Shown here: piece after piece, positions 27,409-61,990 of the stretch | Layout of the letters: every line of letters begins with the position of its first letter | Position numbering within the stretch: position 1 is the first letter of the stretch | NCBI RefSeq assembly: GCF_037038585.1 | Contig: NC_092541.1 | Coordinates: 2,973,445 to 3,037,444 of the forward strand | Direction: 5' to 3' | From: Patagioenas fasciata | Taxonomy: Eukaryota; Chordata; Aves; Columbiformes; Columbidae | Length of the DNA stretch: 64,000 nucleotides | The notes under the pieces: generated by a model | Databases searched by the model: none | Told to the model about the DNA's origin: nothing | Seen by the model: the letters and a program-made list of their open reading frames with translations, nothing else | Program-made: the position numbers and the translations under genes

Positions 27409-27950
27409 TAATTTCTTAGAATTGCACACACGAAAAAAAAATATATGTATCTCTCTCCTAAAATTTATTCCTGTCCCCCCCCCTTTACTCGTTTTCCTGT
27501 TTCGTGAAACCCTCCTACTTACTGTCAAGTGAACAAAGTTGGAGTCCATGTGACAGCGCGGGCCAATGGCGAGGTGCCCTGCGAGCCCCGGATAAGGAAA
27601 TCTGCCCAGCCCGGGTTCTCCCGGGGCCCCGAGCATCCCCGGGGAGGCGACGGGGGCGCCCGCTCCCCTCCGGCCCCTCCGGCCGCCCCGGCCCCGCCGG
27701 CCCCAGCGGCCCCAGGCTGCGCAGCGCCCGCGGGCGAGAACCGGCCCCCCCGGCCCACACCCCTCGGGGGTGTGTCCTGGCTCGGGGCGGGAGGGAACCG
27801 GGGAAGGAGGGCGGGAAAGAAATAAAAATATCGCCCCCCCCGGTCCAAGGGAAAAAAAAAATCCAGTGTAAAAATGATTTTTCAGGTTTTTTTCAGCACA
27901 TGATCCATGGCGGTCCCTCCGGGTGGCGGCTGCATCTCATTCCGCGCTAA
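27409..27950 (-). promoter_or_regulatory. HOXB4: HOXB4 proximal promoter and CpG island
   Basis: It is very CpG-rich from 27560 to 27840 and has no TATA box. On the minus strand GCCATTGG (plus CCAATGGC, 27563-27570) overlaps a YY1-type GCCAT core and an inverted CCAAT box, followed by TCACATGG (E-box-like CATGTG, 27547-27552). NF-Y and YY1 acting on the Hoxb4 promoter is established in mouse; that this is the same site is inferred from sequence and position (about 155 bp upstream of the ATG). Confidence 0.65.
27563..27570 (-). promoter_or_regulatory. Overlapping NF-Y/YY1-type site, HOXB4 promoter
   Basis: CCAATGGC on the plus strand reads GCCATTGG on the minus strand. The CCAAT box and the GCCAT core share bases, so occupancy by the two factors could be exclusive. 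Confidence 0.55.
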
Positions 27951-28650: not shown

Positions 28651-28755
28651 GTAGTGTTTGTGTCAACTACATATTCCCCTAGATACGAATTTGTGACCCA
28701 ACTTCCTTTACACAAATTCGGATCTACAGGGTACATATAGAAGACAGATGCATCC
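28651..28755 (-). ncRNA. MIR10A: microRNA mir-10a precursor
   Basis: The minus strand encodes the full mature miR-10a (positions 28711-28733, starting TACCCTGTAGATCC) with no mismatch to the vertebrate sequence. The opposite arm, miR-10a* (28672-28693, containing TCGTATCTAGGGG), lies across an 18-nt loop. The arms pair over about 22 bp with a few mismatches, and the flanks extend the stem. Position between HOXB4 and HOXB5, same strand, is the conserved genomic site. miR-10a represses HOXB3 among other targets and is co-expressed with HOXB4. Confidence 0.98.
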
Positions 28756-51700: not shown

Positions 51701-54400
51701 GAAACGCCAACCCCCCCCAAGCAGAGGCAGGCAGATAGATGAGGGGATTAAAACAACACCCAAATATTTCGAAACACAAACAGAACAGAGCATTGCTTGT
51801 GTGAAAGCTAAAGCCGCTAAGAACTTGATAGAAAGTTCAGTGCAGTTGGTTCCAATAAAAAATGAAACTCTCTTTTTTTCATGTGGAGCTGGAATTCCCG
51901 ATCCTTCTGAAGTGAGAACACAGCGGGGGTTTCCCTACCCAGGGACTTATTGCAGCAATAAAGTCAAGCCAACACCAAGTGTTTTACTTGAAACAACCCC
52001 TTGTTCCTGGAGTCAGGCACATTGGCTGCCCTGTAGTGCTCATGCACACCCGAAATCACATCAGAAAAACCACCCGACAGAGCCATGTACAGTTCCAGGG
52101 CTGGAGGATTTAAAACAATCATCCCCAAGGTGTAAAACAACACCCTCTCTCCCCGCACACAACCGCACACAACCGCCTGAAACTTAATTTCCAGCAATTT
52201 CAGTTTAATTTACCTGACTTCCCGTGCAGTGCATAATAACCTTGTTAATGAGATCTTTGAAAAGAAGCAATAATAATCTACCATTGTTCCATTAAAGAGT
52301 GCAGCTAATTATTAACAAAAAAAAAGGGGGGGGGGGGAGAATGAGGGAGGGGGCAGAAGGGCATTGGGGGAGTCAAAATGCATCCAGACCTAAGTACTTC
52401 TGTGAAAGTAAATCCTGGGAAGGGAAAGCAGAGAGAAGGAGAGGAAAAGGCGAGACGGATCGTGTGATGTGGAAGGCGAGTGCTGGGAGTGTTGGGAATT
52501 ACAGCATGGAACAAGTTAATCATGGCTGTTGCTGGTCAAAAGAGAGAAACTTTTTTCTTTCATTCCTTTTTTTTTTTTCACATAGCCCCTGGACATCTCA
52601 CTTTCTTCGAGAAAATGTCCTGGTCTAGACGCAAACAGTTGCCAGGAAACTGTGTGGTAGAAGGAGAAAACGAGAGGGAGAAAGCGAGAGGGAGGGAGGG
52701 CGAGAGAGAAACCTTTGAAAATAACAGGCACGCATTGTCCCTTCAAAGCTACAGTAACTTAAAAGTGATTCGTCGTCTGCTCCTTCCCCAGCCACCACCT
52801 CCTCTGTGCGCACCCGGCCTGCGTGGCTTCTCCAGCCCCACCGAAATGACCACTGGCGGCAATAAATAAATCCGAGCTCCTCCGCCGTTTATGATCAGCT
52901 GAAATCCCCTTCGCCTCGTACGTCATTATTGCATCGCATTTTACAACATCCACGCTTGTGTTCGCGCTCAGCAACCAGCCACCTCTCATCTTCCATGTGC
53001 ATACAGACAGACAGATGTGAGCCTTTATGATGTAGGATGTGTAGATTTGTCCGCAGCCCGCAAGGCGCAGACCCGCAGTGTATCAACAGCATCGGAGACA
53101 CATATAGATCAACACACACATTCGGGGTGCGCACAGCTCACATGTGAGTGCACATACATGTGCGAGTGCACCCTATAGACATATCTCCAGACACTTGAAG
53201 GCCGAACATATAGCTATAAGCACACATGTGCCGGCCGCAGCGCACAGCGGGACACCGGGGCTCGGCGGGGCCGGCTCTGCCGGGGGAGCTCCGGGCCCTG
53301 GCACCGGTCGGGGACAGGGGAGGGCAGTCAGGGCAGGGTCCCCCCCGGGACACCAGCTGCGGGAGCCCCCCGGGAGCCGCCGGCCGCCGCCGCCGACGGT
53401 AGATGGCAGCAGACGGCGGGGAATGGGCCGAGCCCCGCGGCGCGGCGGCACCGGGGGACGGGACGGCGCTGCGGGGGGTGCCGCGCTTCACTCCTTGATT
53501 TCCTTATTTTCTTAAATAAACAAGCAGGGTAGGATGCTGGGAGGGGAGCCCAGCCCAGAACGTAGCGGACACCCCCACAAACACCGGGGGTGCTCGGAGT
53601 TTTCTCGGTTACATCCCGCCGGAGCGGGTTGCAACGGGTCAATAGACCTGCCCGCACCGAGCTGCGTGGCTGCCACAGGTGGTTGCCCACGCAGGATTTG
53701 GAGGAATCGTCATAAAAGCTTTTTTTCAAGTAAGATTTCTAAATTTTCTTCTTCCGAAGGCAAAAAACAACAAGCAAAACACATCAAATCAAACGACCAC
53801 GGAAAGACTCGGGAACAGACGTTTGAACCGGCATTAATTTTTCCCCCTGTGATTTATGAAAAATGTAACAGGTTCGGGAAGAAATAGCTTTTTAAAATGA
53901 CTTTCTGTTTATTTCCACGGCTTGCGATCATTTAATCTTGCCCACACCATATTCAGGCGCAGTTAGTTTATGTGAGATAAATCGTCACGTCATAAAATGG
54001 TTTATGCGTAAGTAATGAATCTCGTCTTACTCAGCCTTGCTTCACATACAACAGCTCTTACATCACCTTATTTAAAAATCACCTCGTAACAGTAGCAATT
54101 AGGACTATATTTCAACACACACTAACCCTTGAAATATTGAAAAAAACACCCTTAAAATGACGGGCACCTCCTTACAAATATTTTCCTAAAAGCGAAGAGA
54201 AGCGTTAGGGAATCAGCCAGAGGAGAGGGGGATTTGCACATAACCTGGTGTGGGAAAGCACCGACACATCGTGGGGTGAAATCCAAGCCCGTGTTCCGGC
54301 CGTAAAGCCGTAAAACCCCGTTAACACGGCAGAACGCAATTAAATACAATGAGGTTTATTGCATCGCAACGTCAGCTTCATTTGGGAGTTTCACAAGGGG
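48761..54400. other. HOXB6-HOXB7 interval, part 1
   Basis: No gene seen. CpG-rich patches lie at 48840-48910 and 53230-53480. AT-rich, homeodomain-core-dense blocks at about 49990-50250, 50570-50900, 52190-52320 and 53900-54130 (ATAAATCGTCACGTCATAAAATGG near 53980) look like candidate enhancers. ORFs of up to 175 codons follow GC content and have no domain signature. Confidence 0.5.
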
Positions 54401-55560
54401 AAAAAAAAAAATACAATAAGAGCGCTGCGCTCTGGGTTGGCTTCATTCTTATTAGTTTTTTCCTTCCCATCTCTCTATTTTTTTCTCGCCCCCCCCCTTT
54501 TTTTTAACTAATTTCCAGAATCTTATTTCCGAAGACCGCCACGAAGTGCCCTCTCCGAAGAAACCACCCACATAATAATGACCCTGGAGAGCAGCGCAAA
54601 ACCCAACCGGCTTCCACACGAACTTTGCCAAATGACTGGGCTCGCCTGCAGCCAGGGAAACTGGCAAGAGATGCTGCGAGGGGGGGAAATAAAACACGAC
54701 AACTACCCACAAAGGGTTTGGGATTTTTTTAAAGGCAGTGCCTAACAGCCTCCGTCACCGCGCTACTGCAAAATCCTTCATTCCCACTCTACAATCTCCA
54801 GGTGACCTTACAGGCTTTATTTTTTCTCCTTATTCCGTTATTTTAATTTTCTTTCTCTTTCTTCTTTCCTTTCTTATTTTCTTTCTCTGTTTCATCCTCA
54901 CACTCTTTCTTCCTTGCTTTCTTATATTTTTTTCTATTTTATTTCTCTATTTCTTTCTATTTCCCTCTCTCAATTTCTTTCTTTACCTTTTTCCATTCTT
55001 CTTTCTCCCTCTCTCTCCTTTGCTCGCCGTTCCGCTACACTTTTTCGGCAAAATCGTCACTTAAACAGATTTCCAGCACCCCTGATTTCTCCCAGTGTCT
55101 CCCTTCTTCATCACCAAACCCTTTTATTTCTATTCCCCCCACCCTGGGTAGAGGAGAGAGGGAGATGGGGAATGGAGTAGAAAAGGCAGCTTGACAAATG
55201 CATTTTCTCAAGGAAAAAAATTAAATGAAGAGAAACAGATATTATTCCCTTACCTTTTGACGTCCATTTCTGTGGCACAAGTAAAACATATAGGGAGAGA
55301 GACACAGCGTTTGCTTATCTGTTAGCTGACAAATATTGTCCCAACCTGATAGCCGTCGATTGCCTCTCTGACTTGGGAGAGCTTCTTGCATTTCTGTCAT
55401 TTGCATAGAAAATAGAGCAACTTCCCTCTTTGAAAAATGATCGCCACTCCGTCCGGAATCTCCTCTGCCCCTCCATCACTACTGAGATTCCCAATCAGCA
55501 GGCAAATTAACAGAGGAATTAAAAAATGATAATAATCTAAAAAAATCCTAGGAGTGCTCA
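54401..55560. other. HOXB6-HOXB7 interval, part 2
   Basis: No gene seen. It is dominated by a ~200-bp pyrimidine tract (54816-55022). A mixed-composition block at 55320-55560 with TATTTTCTATGCAAATGAC (minus strand, octamer ATGCAAAT) may be regulatory. Confidence 0.5.
54816..55022. repeat. ~200-bp polypyrimidine/polypurine tract
   Basis: TTTC/TTCT-rich plus strand with few purines over about 207 bp. Imperfect rather than a simple microsatellite. Confidence 0.8.
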
Positions 55561-55734
55561 GCTATGTGTGTGCGGAGGTGGGTGTCTCTGTGTGCGGTGT
55601 GCGGATCCGCGTCCCCCCCTCCCCTCTCCCTGCTTTTAGCCCTATCGAGCTTATACACAAAAGTAAAAAAATGTAAAGAGGCGAGAGCCCTATAGAGGAC
55701 ACTGATCCGACCCAAGGTGCAGCGGACAGAAGAA

Positions 55735-55940
55735 TGGTGCAATATAACCACATGGGAAATAATAAAAAGTTCATGTTCACGGTTAGCAGTCCACATGACC
55801 GGCTCTGGCCAATCCCAGAACCCAGCCACTCATAAAGTTCTATCACAAAGTTGTAAATTTTCATAAAACAACAAGGAATTTATTGCATTTCTTCATGACC
55901 GGTTTAACAGCAGTCTTTTTCTTAGCCGCCATCTTTTTTT
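55735..55940 (-). promoter_or_regulatory. Orphan Hox-type promoter-like block
   Basis: On the minus strand, in order: AAGATGGCGGC (perfect YY1-type promoter motif, 55925-55935), GCAATAAATTCC, TTTATGAAAATTTAC, CTTTATGAGTGGC, ATTGGCC (plus CCAAT, 55809-55813), GGTCATGTGG (55791-55800). The ATTGG plus CATGTG pairing matches the HOXB4 and HOXB7 promoters. No open reading frame with a homeobox follows. It could be an alternative HOXB6 promoter, a lncRNA promoter or an enhancer. Confidence 0.5.
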
Positions 55941-57654
55941 AAAACAAAAATAAAAGAATATGAAAGGGGATTCGGGGATTTTTGCACACCCCCCCTACTT
56001 GGTTGCATGTAGGGGGGGTGTTGGAGAGAAATAATCGAATAACGCCTCACACGGTCGGCTATGAACATTAATACCCCCCCAGAATAAAAGAGCTTGGGGT
56101 TGGGGTTGGCTTTGAAACGAGGAAAGGCACAGTAAAACAGTGGGGTTCGGGTGGGATTTTTGACGTCTCTTTTTTTCCACAATTGGGATCCTTTCTGCTG
56201 ACAGGGGCAATTAGCGGCTTTCGGGGGCGGGGGAGGCGAAAAAAGGCAAATAAAGGCAATAAAAATGTGGCCGGTTTGCCCGAGGTCTGGGTAGAGCCCA
56301 GTCCGGAGCGTCCTGACTGTCGGGGTCCCCACGGCCAAACACCCCAGAACCCACCGGGACCCCACGCCCCCCCCGCTATAGCGCGGCAAGGTGGGGTCCC
56401 CCCCGCGGCAGCGCTGCCTTCGGCAGAGCAGCGTCCGTGTGACTTGCTCTGCCTTTTTTTTCCGTGGATTTCTCCTCAATTCCTGCTTGTGCCTTGGCCG
56501 CCGGGGTCCAAGGCAGGGGGGGGCCACTGTGGGCCAGAAGAGCGAGGGGGAAATTTCTGGAACCGCCGCCTCTTTTTGTTTTCCCTCCCCATCCCCGCTC
56601 TGCACAGAGCGCTCCTGAGATTGCACCCAGGGATTTCAGCAAGAAAAAGGGAAGATTTTCCCCTTTTCCCTTCACGTGGGAATTTCACTGTGCAAAAGCC
56701 ATAATAGCTTCTGCCTCTAATAATGGGCTTCCCGTAATTAGTATCAGCAGCGTACACTGCAAATCTGCGTTAGAGCTGTGGGCGCGCAGATGCTTTACGT
56801 GGCATCTGATTTTCCCTAAAACCTGCGGAAGGATGAGCTGCGCCCTTCGCTGAGCACATGGAGTCATCTGCGGGGGTGGGAGGTGAAACAGCAGACAACC
56901 GGCCAGGGAAGGAAGGTGGAAATCGGCCCCGCCAAGTCCTCCCAAAACTGGCTGCGCAACGCGTTTGTGGAGCGAATTAACGTGCAGGAATCCGCGGGTT
57001 TACTGCGCACTGTAAATAAACAGGCAGGGGTGGGAGAGGGAGATGCGGAGGATGCTCCCCCGCGCAAGGGTTTCCATTTACTCGCCTTTTGTTTTGCATT
57101 GTTGATTTTTTTTTCCCCTGCGTTTAATTGCTTTAATTTATTTTATGCGTGCTTTGATGCTGAACATTATTTGTTGCTAATGAAAGAGTTTCACTCGGCA
57201 ATCAAGTAATTGAAAAGCCGAGGGAGAATCTATATATATACGCGAAAGGCACGGCAAAATAGATTTTTCCCTGCAAATTAGTTACGAGAAGAAGAGAATT
57301 TAAACAAGGGGCGGAAATCCCGTTCGGGCCTTTTTTGGGTTATTTGCATTTCTCCTTTATGCTCTTACCTACATCACTATCAGACCCAGAGCGGTAACGG
57401 AGGGAAAGGGGAGCAGCCTCAATCTAAACGTATCAGTATATTCGCCAAATCTGGTGAAAGGGTCCGAACATTTTGAAAGGAGCGACTGTCCCGCCCCAAA
57501 AAGAGAGTTCAGGGTGATAGAGCGGGGCATGTATAATCTAAAATTATCTGTAATACAAAAAGTACTTTTCCCATGTAAAATAAGCCCGTATATTATATTT
57601 AATAAGAAAAGTGGAAGGAACCAAACGTGATGGTAGATAATGGGAGATTTCCTT
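55941..57654. other. HOXB6-HOXB7 interval, part 3
   Basis: No gene seen. GC-rich from 56210 to 56560, then AT-rich with TAAT cores from 57080 to 57600. CACGTG at 56673-56678. Long overlapping ORFs here are composition-driven. Confidence 0.5.
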
Positions 57655-57660
57655 TTTATT
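57655..57660 (-). terminator. HOXB7 polyadenylation signal
   Basis: TTTATT on the plus strand, AATAAA on the transcript strand. Confidence 0.6.
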
Positions 57661-58324: not shown

Positions 58325-61795
<3,471 letters not shown>

Positions 61796-61990
61796 AATTT
61801 GGCCGGGTGATTTGTAGGTCGGGACGTTTTAGTGTCGGTTTTACGAGGTACCGTGATATATTACGGAATTAGAGTCCAGATTTACACCAAAAAGGAGCCT
61901 TTTTCCTCCCGGCCCATGTGACGCGCGGGCACGTGGCTCCGGCGGCGCCAATCGCCGCCCGCTCCCTCCTCGGGGGCAAAAAATTGTAGT
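61796..61990 (-). promoter_or_regulatory. HOXB7: HOXB7 proximal promoter
   Basis: On the minus strand: ATTGGCG (plus CCAAT, 61948-61952), CACGTG (61930-61935), GTCACATGG (61914-61922) and an AATATATC AT box near 61855. It is flanked upstream by TTTATAAAT. The inverted CCAAT lies 153 bp upstream of the ATG. Confidence 0.65.

Follow-up and report, generated by a model that had tools for sequence, protein, structure and literature searches.

A probable distal promoter on the sense strand between HOXB6 and HOXB7 in Patagioenas fasciata and its homologue in the HOXC cluster

The block at positions 55735-55940 of the window (a 64,000-nt stretch of the Patagioenas fasciata genome; Table 1) is probably the central part of a distal promoter on the sense strand, in the spacer between HOXB6 and HOXB7, old enough to be common with the HOXC cluster. 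Judged from its sequence, it most likely represents HOXB in a family of mid-cluster distal sense promoters that make long HOXB6-containing transcripts, a family that is itself most likely at least as old as the HOXB/HOXC split. The block is homologous to an element at the matching position of HOXC and has the same orientation; YY1-type and NF-Y/E-box sites are aligned in the two, and a splice donor sequence follows downstream. From these features we infer that the block is transcribed from a start site of its own, that the product is spliced and that factors bind it. The original prediction had offered an alternative HOXB6 promoter or a lncRNA start. The former is the best-supported reading and overall stands in part, on the strength of the HOXC paralogue, the orientation, the donor and the positions of published promoters. 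The label "orphan", also used at the time, does not really fit, because the block appears to belong to the distal mid-cluster Hox promoter family.

Motifs and setting of the block

The window contains HOXB3, mir-10, HOXB4, HOXB5, HOXB6 and HOXB7, all on the minus strand, with gene names assigned from the homeobox and start sequences. Start and stop codon positions confirm that the block lies between HOXB6 and HOXB7, in the spacer separating the PG6 gene from its upstream neighbour, and about 1.7 kb after an AATAAA at 57660 behind HOXB7. As had been stated, no homeobox ORF follows the block directly, the next on the minus strand being HOXB6, 7.3 kb on.

The motifs that had been ascribed to the block are present. 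Read on the minus strand towards HOXB6, they comprise the YY1 motif AAGATGGCGGC (55935-55925), two TTTATG cores, ATTGGCC-N7-GTCATGTGGAC, which includes the inverted CCAAT box and CATGTGG, and a second CATGTGG. The YY1-type motif, a single copy in the window against 0.027 expected per 64 kb, may indicate the region where a minus-strand transcript starts. We take the TTTATG cores to be CDX/HOX-type sites; counting TTTATG/TTTATT-type cores on either strand, the block has four against a mean of 0.68, a number reached in 1.3% of 206-bp windows.

The composition of the block leaves room for a conserved enhancer of HOXB6/HOXB7, receiving CDX/HOX, NF-Y and E-box input and having no stable transcript of its own. 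GC content is 0.38 and CpG o/e 0.55, compared with a CpG o/e of 0.83-0.98 in the 500 bp upstream of four HOXB genes, and the block is therefore not a CpG-island promoter; nor does it contain a clear TATA box. Because of these two properties the enhancer stays the main rival to the promoter reading, and both the clustering of CDX/HOX-type cores and the conservation of the block between clusters would suit it as well. We nevertheless consider it unlikely, since the YY1 motif is strand-polar and a strong donor lies downstream of it in both clusters; the distribution of the NF-Y/E-box module and the published promoters described below also argue against it.

The ATG within the YY1 site opens a 23-codon frame (55932-55861, minus strand; MAAKKKTAVKPVMKKCNKFLVVL), which we rejected as probably not coding, the HOXC frame being different and shifted in an alignment judged by eye. 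Just upstream of the YY1 site, at 55986-56021, is a 16-nt inverted repeat that contains runs of C and G. Scanning viral contigs for an exact 28-mer gave no occurrence, and a literature search for the YY1 11-mer likewise returned nothing.

Table 1. Features of the HOXB window and of the Hox sequences compared with it.
Feature	Position	Strand	Remarks
Window	G000:C29:2973445-3037444		1.45-Gb genome
Element core; homologue at C35:5196566-5196703 (minus) in the HOXC8-HOXC6 spacer	55761..55899	-	genome DNA search
YY1-type motif AAGATGGCGGC	55925..55935	-	sequence
TTTATG core, CDX/HOX-type (assumed)	55862..55867	-	not conserved in HOXC
TTTATG core, CDX/HOX-type (assumed)	55831..55836	-	TTTACG in HOXC
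NF-Y/E-box (USF-type) module ATTGGCC-N7-GTCATGTGGAC	55789..55813	-	full module ATTGGCCAGAGCCGGTCATGTGGAC
Second CATGTG E-box (CATGTGG from 55754)	55749..55754	-	not conserved in HOXC
Proposed non-coding first exon	55254..55945	-	predicted from YY1-type motif and donor
Splice donor AAG/GTAAGG	55252..55253	-	score 11.3; predicted
Candidate acceptor CTCCCTTCAG/C	48585..48586	-	score 9.2; first exon base 48584, 101 nt before HOXB6 ATG
HOXB6	46588..48483	-	ATG 48483 to homeobox ORF end; proposed downstream gene
HOXB7	58325..61795	-	ATG 61795, stop about 58325; upstream neighbour of the block
mir-10 precursor	28666-28740	-	Rfam RF00104, 73.1 bits; upstream of HOXB4
HOXB4 proximal NF-Y/E-box module (ATTGGCCCGCGCTGTCACATG)	27547..27567	-	159 nt ahead of ATG
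Module copies	window 27567, 61952; C2:133612022; C35:5162764; C10:23993636	sense	HOXB4, HOXB7, HOXA7, near HOXC4, HOXD4
HOXC cluster	C35: 5205340, 5185113, 5180475		starts of HOXC8, HOXC6 and HOXC5

Homology to HOXC and to other Hox promoters

Searched against the 1.45-Gb genome, positions 55700-56000 returned one non-self match at E ≤ 10 (the first look of this search passed two candidates, and weaker relatives could be missed). The match pairs 55761-55899 with C35:5196566-5196703 over 139 bp at 73% identity (E = 1.3e-13), in the same orientation, and sits between HOXC8 and HOXC6, where HOXC7 would be. HOXC7 has been lost in vertebrates. A local blastn alignment of the block with the HOXC element gave E = 2e-17, and the alignment score was 89, whereas none of 300 shuffles exceeded 33. 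A blast comparison of the window with 40 kb of HOXC, run with low-complexity filtering, gave 20 matches at E < 1e-4, of which one was the block and the other 19 were homeobox exons. Short AT-rich matches between the flank of the block and HOXC (E of 6e-5 and above) were rejected as low complexity and were gone once the filter was on.

Within the homologous stretch, the YY1-type motif (AACATGGCGAC in HOXC) and ATTGGCC..GTCATGTGGAC are aligned in both clusters, the former lying 122 nt before ATTGGCC in HOXB and 117 nt before it in HOXC. A pattern built from the downstream end of the block matched the block and nothing else, and conservation therefore ends soon after the module. A literature search of limited depth found no published account of homology of the element between HOXB and HOXC.

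The motifs alone prove little, because the YY1 11-mer is common genome-wide (1174 copies against 40 for a reversed control) and the module pattern, allowing up to three mismatches, is not distinctive (7 places against 13 for a reversed control). Among the seven places are the block with no mismatch, the HOXC site with two and five unrelated places with three. Commonness of this kind is what would favour a fortuitous grouping of motifs, or a conserved remnant that no longer has a function; a 139-bp homology to one place in the genome, at the corresponding position in a paralogous cluster, makes either very improbable.

The block had also been likened to the HOXB4 promoter, and the likeness turns out to be real within narrow bounds. 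NF-Y and USF are reported to act at the HoxB4 promoter (PMC3675019). Like the block, the HOXB4 proximal promoter has ATTGGCC followed by GTCA(CA or TG)TGGAC. Going by this motif and the HoxB4 literature, NF-Y and USF may bind the module at 55789..55813. The shared part is a short NF-Y/E-box module of about 25 bp; nothing aligns beyond it, the spacing is off by one base, and the HOXB4 promoter is richer in CpG than the block (o/e 0.83). Compared with the 600 bp upstream of HOXB4, HOXB5, HOXB6 and HOXB7, the score of the block (18 for HOXB4) was reached by 193, 53, 28 and 130 of 300 shuffles, respectively, and homology to these proximal promoters beyond the short module was rejected by this test. 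The "same order as HOXB7" once claimed for the block applies loosely only, HOXB7 having ATTGGCG...CACGTG...GTCACATG at 61952.

The likeness to HOXB4 reflects a short module common to several Hox promoters. A strict form, ATTGGCC-N3-20-GTCA[TC][GA]TG, occurs twice in the window (in the block and in the HOXB4 promoter at 27567) against 0.005 expected, and a looser ATTGG-N5-20-E-box form four times against 1.6, both patterns having been chosen post hoc, after the block was seen. Across 164 kb of Hox DNA (the window plus 100 kb of HOXA, HOXC and HOXD stretches), ATTGG-N5-22-CA[TC][GA]TG was found eight times in the sense orientation and twice in antisense. Four of the eight sense copies lie 122-162 nt ahead of the start codons (as read here) of HOXA7, HOXB7, HOXB4 and HOXD4, which argues against the enhancer reading; a fifth is near HOXC4, and the others are in the HOXB spacer element, the HOXC spacer element and the HOXD8-HOXD4 spacer. 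No copy was found within 600 bp of the starts of HOXA4, HOXA6, HOXB5, HOXB6, HOXC5, HOXC6 or HOXC8 (0 of 7), a promoter count that leaves out two spurious MSSF-like starts (33889 and C35:5204686), neither of which has the module.

Splice signals and the predicted transcript

A predicted splice donor follows the YY1 site by 682 nt and is the only one scoring at least 8 on the minus strand between 53.5 and 56 kb. It is also one of five minus-strand donors of at least 10.5 in the window, the plus strand having one in the 64 kb. In HOXC, a donor (CTG/GTAAGT) occurs 786 nt after the YY1-type motif, and in the HOXA6-HOXA7 spacer a donor scoring 10.7 (AAG/GTGAGA) occurs 526 nt after AAGATGGCGCC. Donors of at least 10.5 are expected 0.080, 0.062 and 0.040 times per 800 bp in HOXA, HOXB and HOXC, respectively, and were found after the YY1-type motif in three of three spacers; that this is due to chance is unlikely, although the threshold and range were set after seeing the data. 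Donor and acceptor scores come from frequency tables that are imperfect: they recover the HOXB7 sites (exon 2 acceptor, 11.8), the HOXB6 donor scores only 7.0, the donor table finds nothing for HOXB5 and the acceptor table none for HOXB4, HOXB5 or HOXB6 in the ranges tried.

On the promoter reading, YY1 would set initiation near 55950, NF-Y and USF-type factors would open the chromatin, and CDX/HOX factors at the TTTATG cores would give positional input. The polymerase would then run towards HOXB6, and a first, non-coding exon some 0.7 kb long would be spliced from 55253 to the HOXB6 5′ leader, perhaps at 48584, or alternatively to an intermediate exon or further downstream. The products would be long transcripts that contain HOXB6 or span several genes, like those of the mouse Hoxa5 promoter D2 and of HOXC6/C5/C4. 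Several observations weigh against this reading. Among them, the YY1 site precedes the NF-Y site by about 120 nt, an awkward arrangement if YY1 marks the start, and the acceptor at 48584 is modest, with a stronger one (score 14.1) at 52414, the highest of seven acceptors scoring at least 8 between 48.1 and 53 kb. A HOXC6 counterpart of the acceptor at 48584 was not evident.

If the predicted exon is real, it is a candidate 5′ exon that the genome annotation may lack, and the block offers a concrete target for deletion with which to test how important long sense transcripts are for HOXB6 and the genes next to it.

Mid-cluster promoters and the other Hox clusters

Promoters at the corresponding positions of HOXA and HOXC are already in print, which also argues against the enhancer reading of the block. 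The mouse Hoxa5 distal promoter D2 is described as lying 2.3 kb downstream of Hoxa7, between that gene and Hoxa6, and as including a 160-bp block that is highly conserved among the vertebrates compared, with a TATA box in most of them (PMC2868907). In the same account, reporter staining in transgenic embryos was Hox-like when driven by a 4-kb D2 fragment to which a mesodermal enhancer had been added; the long D2 transcripts run towards Hoxa5 and the vicinity of Hoxa3, and only the short Hoxa5 transcript is translated into HOXA5 protein (PMC2868907). D2 resembles the block in its spacer position (2.3 kb, against about 1.7 kb after the AATAAA), with its own conserved 160-bp block and long sense transcripts, but differs in its described TATA box and in that the readable HOXA spacer here has no detected homology.

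That spacer does have a likeness to the block of its own, namely AAGATGGCGCC, about 4.7 kb ahead of the HOXA6 start, together with the strong donor noted above; AAGATGGCG has two copies in 144 kb of Hox DNA, one in the block and one in the HOXA6-HOXA7 spacer. Neither blastn nor a profile of the HOXB and HOXC elements matched the readable part of the spacer to the block, and relaxed alignment gave weak, mostly low-complexity matches only. Both the HOXA and the HOXD comparisons are incomplete, with 755 of 30,000 bases of the HOXA stretch and 255 of 20,000 of the HOXD stretch being N.

Hoxc6, c5 and c4 are described as able to use a common promoter and as sharing a non-coding exon (PMC1831499; PMC9680502, citing Simeone 1988). 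The position thus described resembles that of the block, between the PG6 gene and the next upstream gene, in the sense orientation and with a donor downstream. Going by position, the HOXC8-HOXC6 element may be this published promoter, in which case the shared HOXC promoter has 139 bp of homology to the block. The HOXC element differs from the block in that identity is 73% and the flanks diverge, and transcripts from the HOXB element are a prediction. Table 1 of a 2007 EST survey gives multi-gene transcripts for HOXB4/mir-10a and HOXB7-8-9 and none for HOXB6 (PMC1831499).

The HOXD8-HOXD4 spacer contains a look-alike, ATTGGC-N8-GTCATGTG (ATTGGCTGCGGCTGGTCATGTG), at C10:23981207, with the 14-base spacing of the HOXB and HOXC elements. 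The strict form of this pattern had a mean count of 0.0000 in 100 simulations of 164 kb, although it was fixed after HOXD had been seen and a looser form found the HOXD copy first. The alignment score of the look-alike with the block (17.0) was reached by 1 of 200 shuffles, whereas that with the HOXC element (10.0) was reached by all 200; the HOXB and HOXC profile gave four matches in HOXD (E of 1.2-9.1), none at the look-alike, and the donor after it scores only 8.8. As a possible HOXD counterpart of the spacer elements, the look-alike is suggestive only.

Human HOXB6 has a long upstream RefSeq isoform that starts some 2 kb downstream of HOXB7. The interval hg19 chr17:46679968-46680261 presumably lies kilobases upstream of the human HOXB6 ATG. 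CpGs in this interval are assigned to the "HOXB6 5′ UTR" in one paper (PMC12273044).

Taken together, the sequences suggest that a single promoter, older than the clusters, gave rise to at least the HOXB and HOXC elements. A wider reading, which we put forward tentatively and with some doubt, is that the ancestral PG6 gene already had one distal promoter upstream of it before the early-vertebrate duplication of the Hox clusters, that this promoter was kept in HOXA (as D2), HOXB, HOXC and HOXD despite later loss of PG7 or PG5-7, and that it derived from the NF-Y/E-box module now at the PG4 and PG7 proximal promoters. Distal promoters feeding several Hox genes have so far been reported cluster by cluster; were the wider reading true, mid-cluster multi-gene sense transcription would be an ancestral Hox feature.

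The other origin proposed for the block, the start of a lncRNA, could be an antisense transcript on the plus strand or an independent sense transcript that does not reach HOXB6. Many antisense transcripts are reported from Hox clusters (PMC1831499, PMC8330917), and the promoters of the antisense lncRNAs HOXA-AS3 and HOXB-AS3 are described as homologous between clusters (PMC8330917), as the block is to its HOXC element. These antisense transcripts are reported to start 3′ of HOX5, about 900 nt downstream of HOXB5 in the case of human HOXB-AS3 (PMC8330917), whereas the block lies in the HOX6-HOX7 spacer. The YY1 motif and the ATTGG..E-box module, moreover, point towards HOXB6, and the single plus-strand donor counted above offers little for an antisense product; we thus regard a lncRNA start as quite improbable, the antisense version being less likely than the sense-strand HOXB6 promoter.

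Downstream of HOXB5, CCATAAA and TTTATGG sites of CDX type face each other at 39894-39914, a possible HOXB-AS3 promoter region, but comparing 38.5-41.9 kb of the window with 20 kb of HOXA by blastn gave no match.
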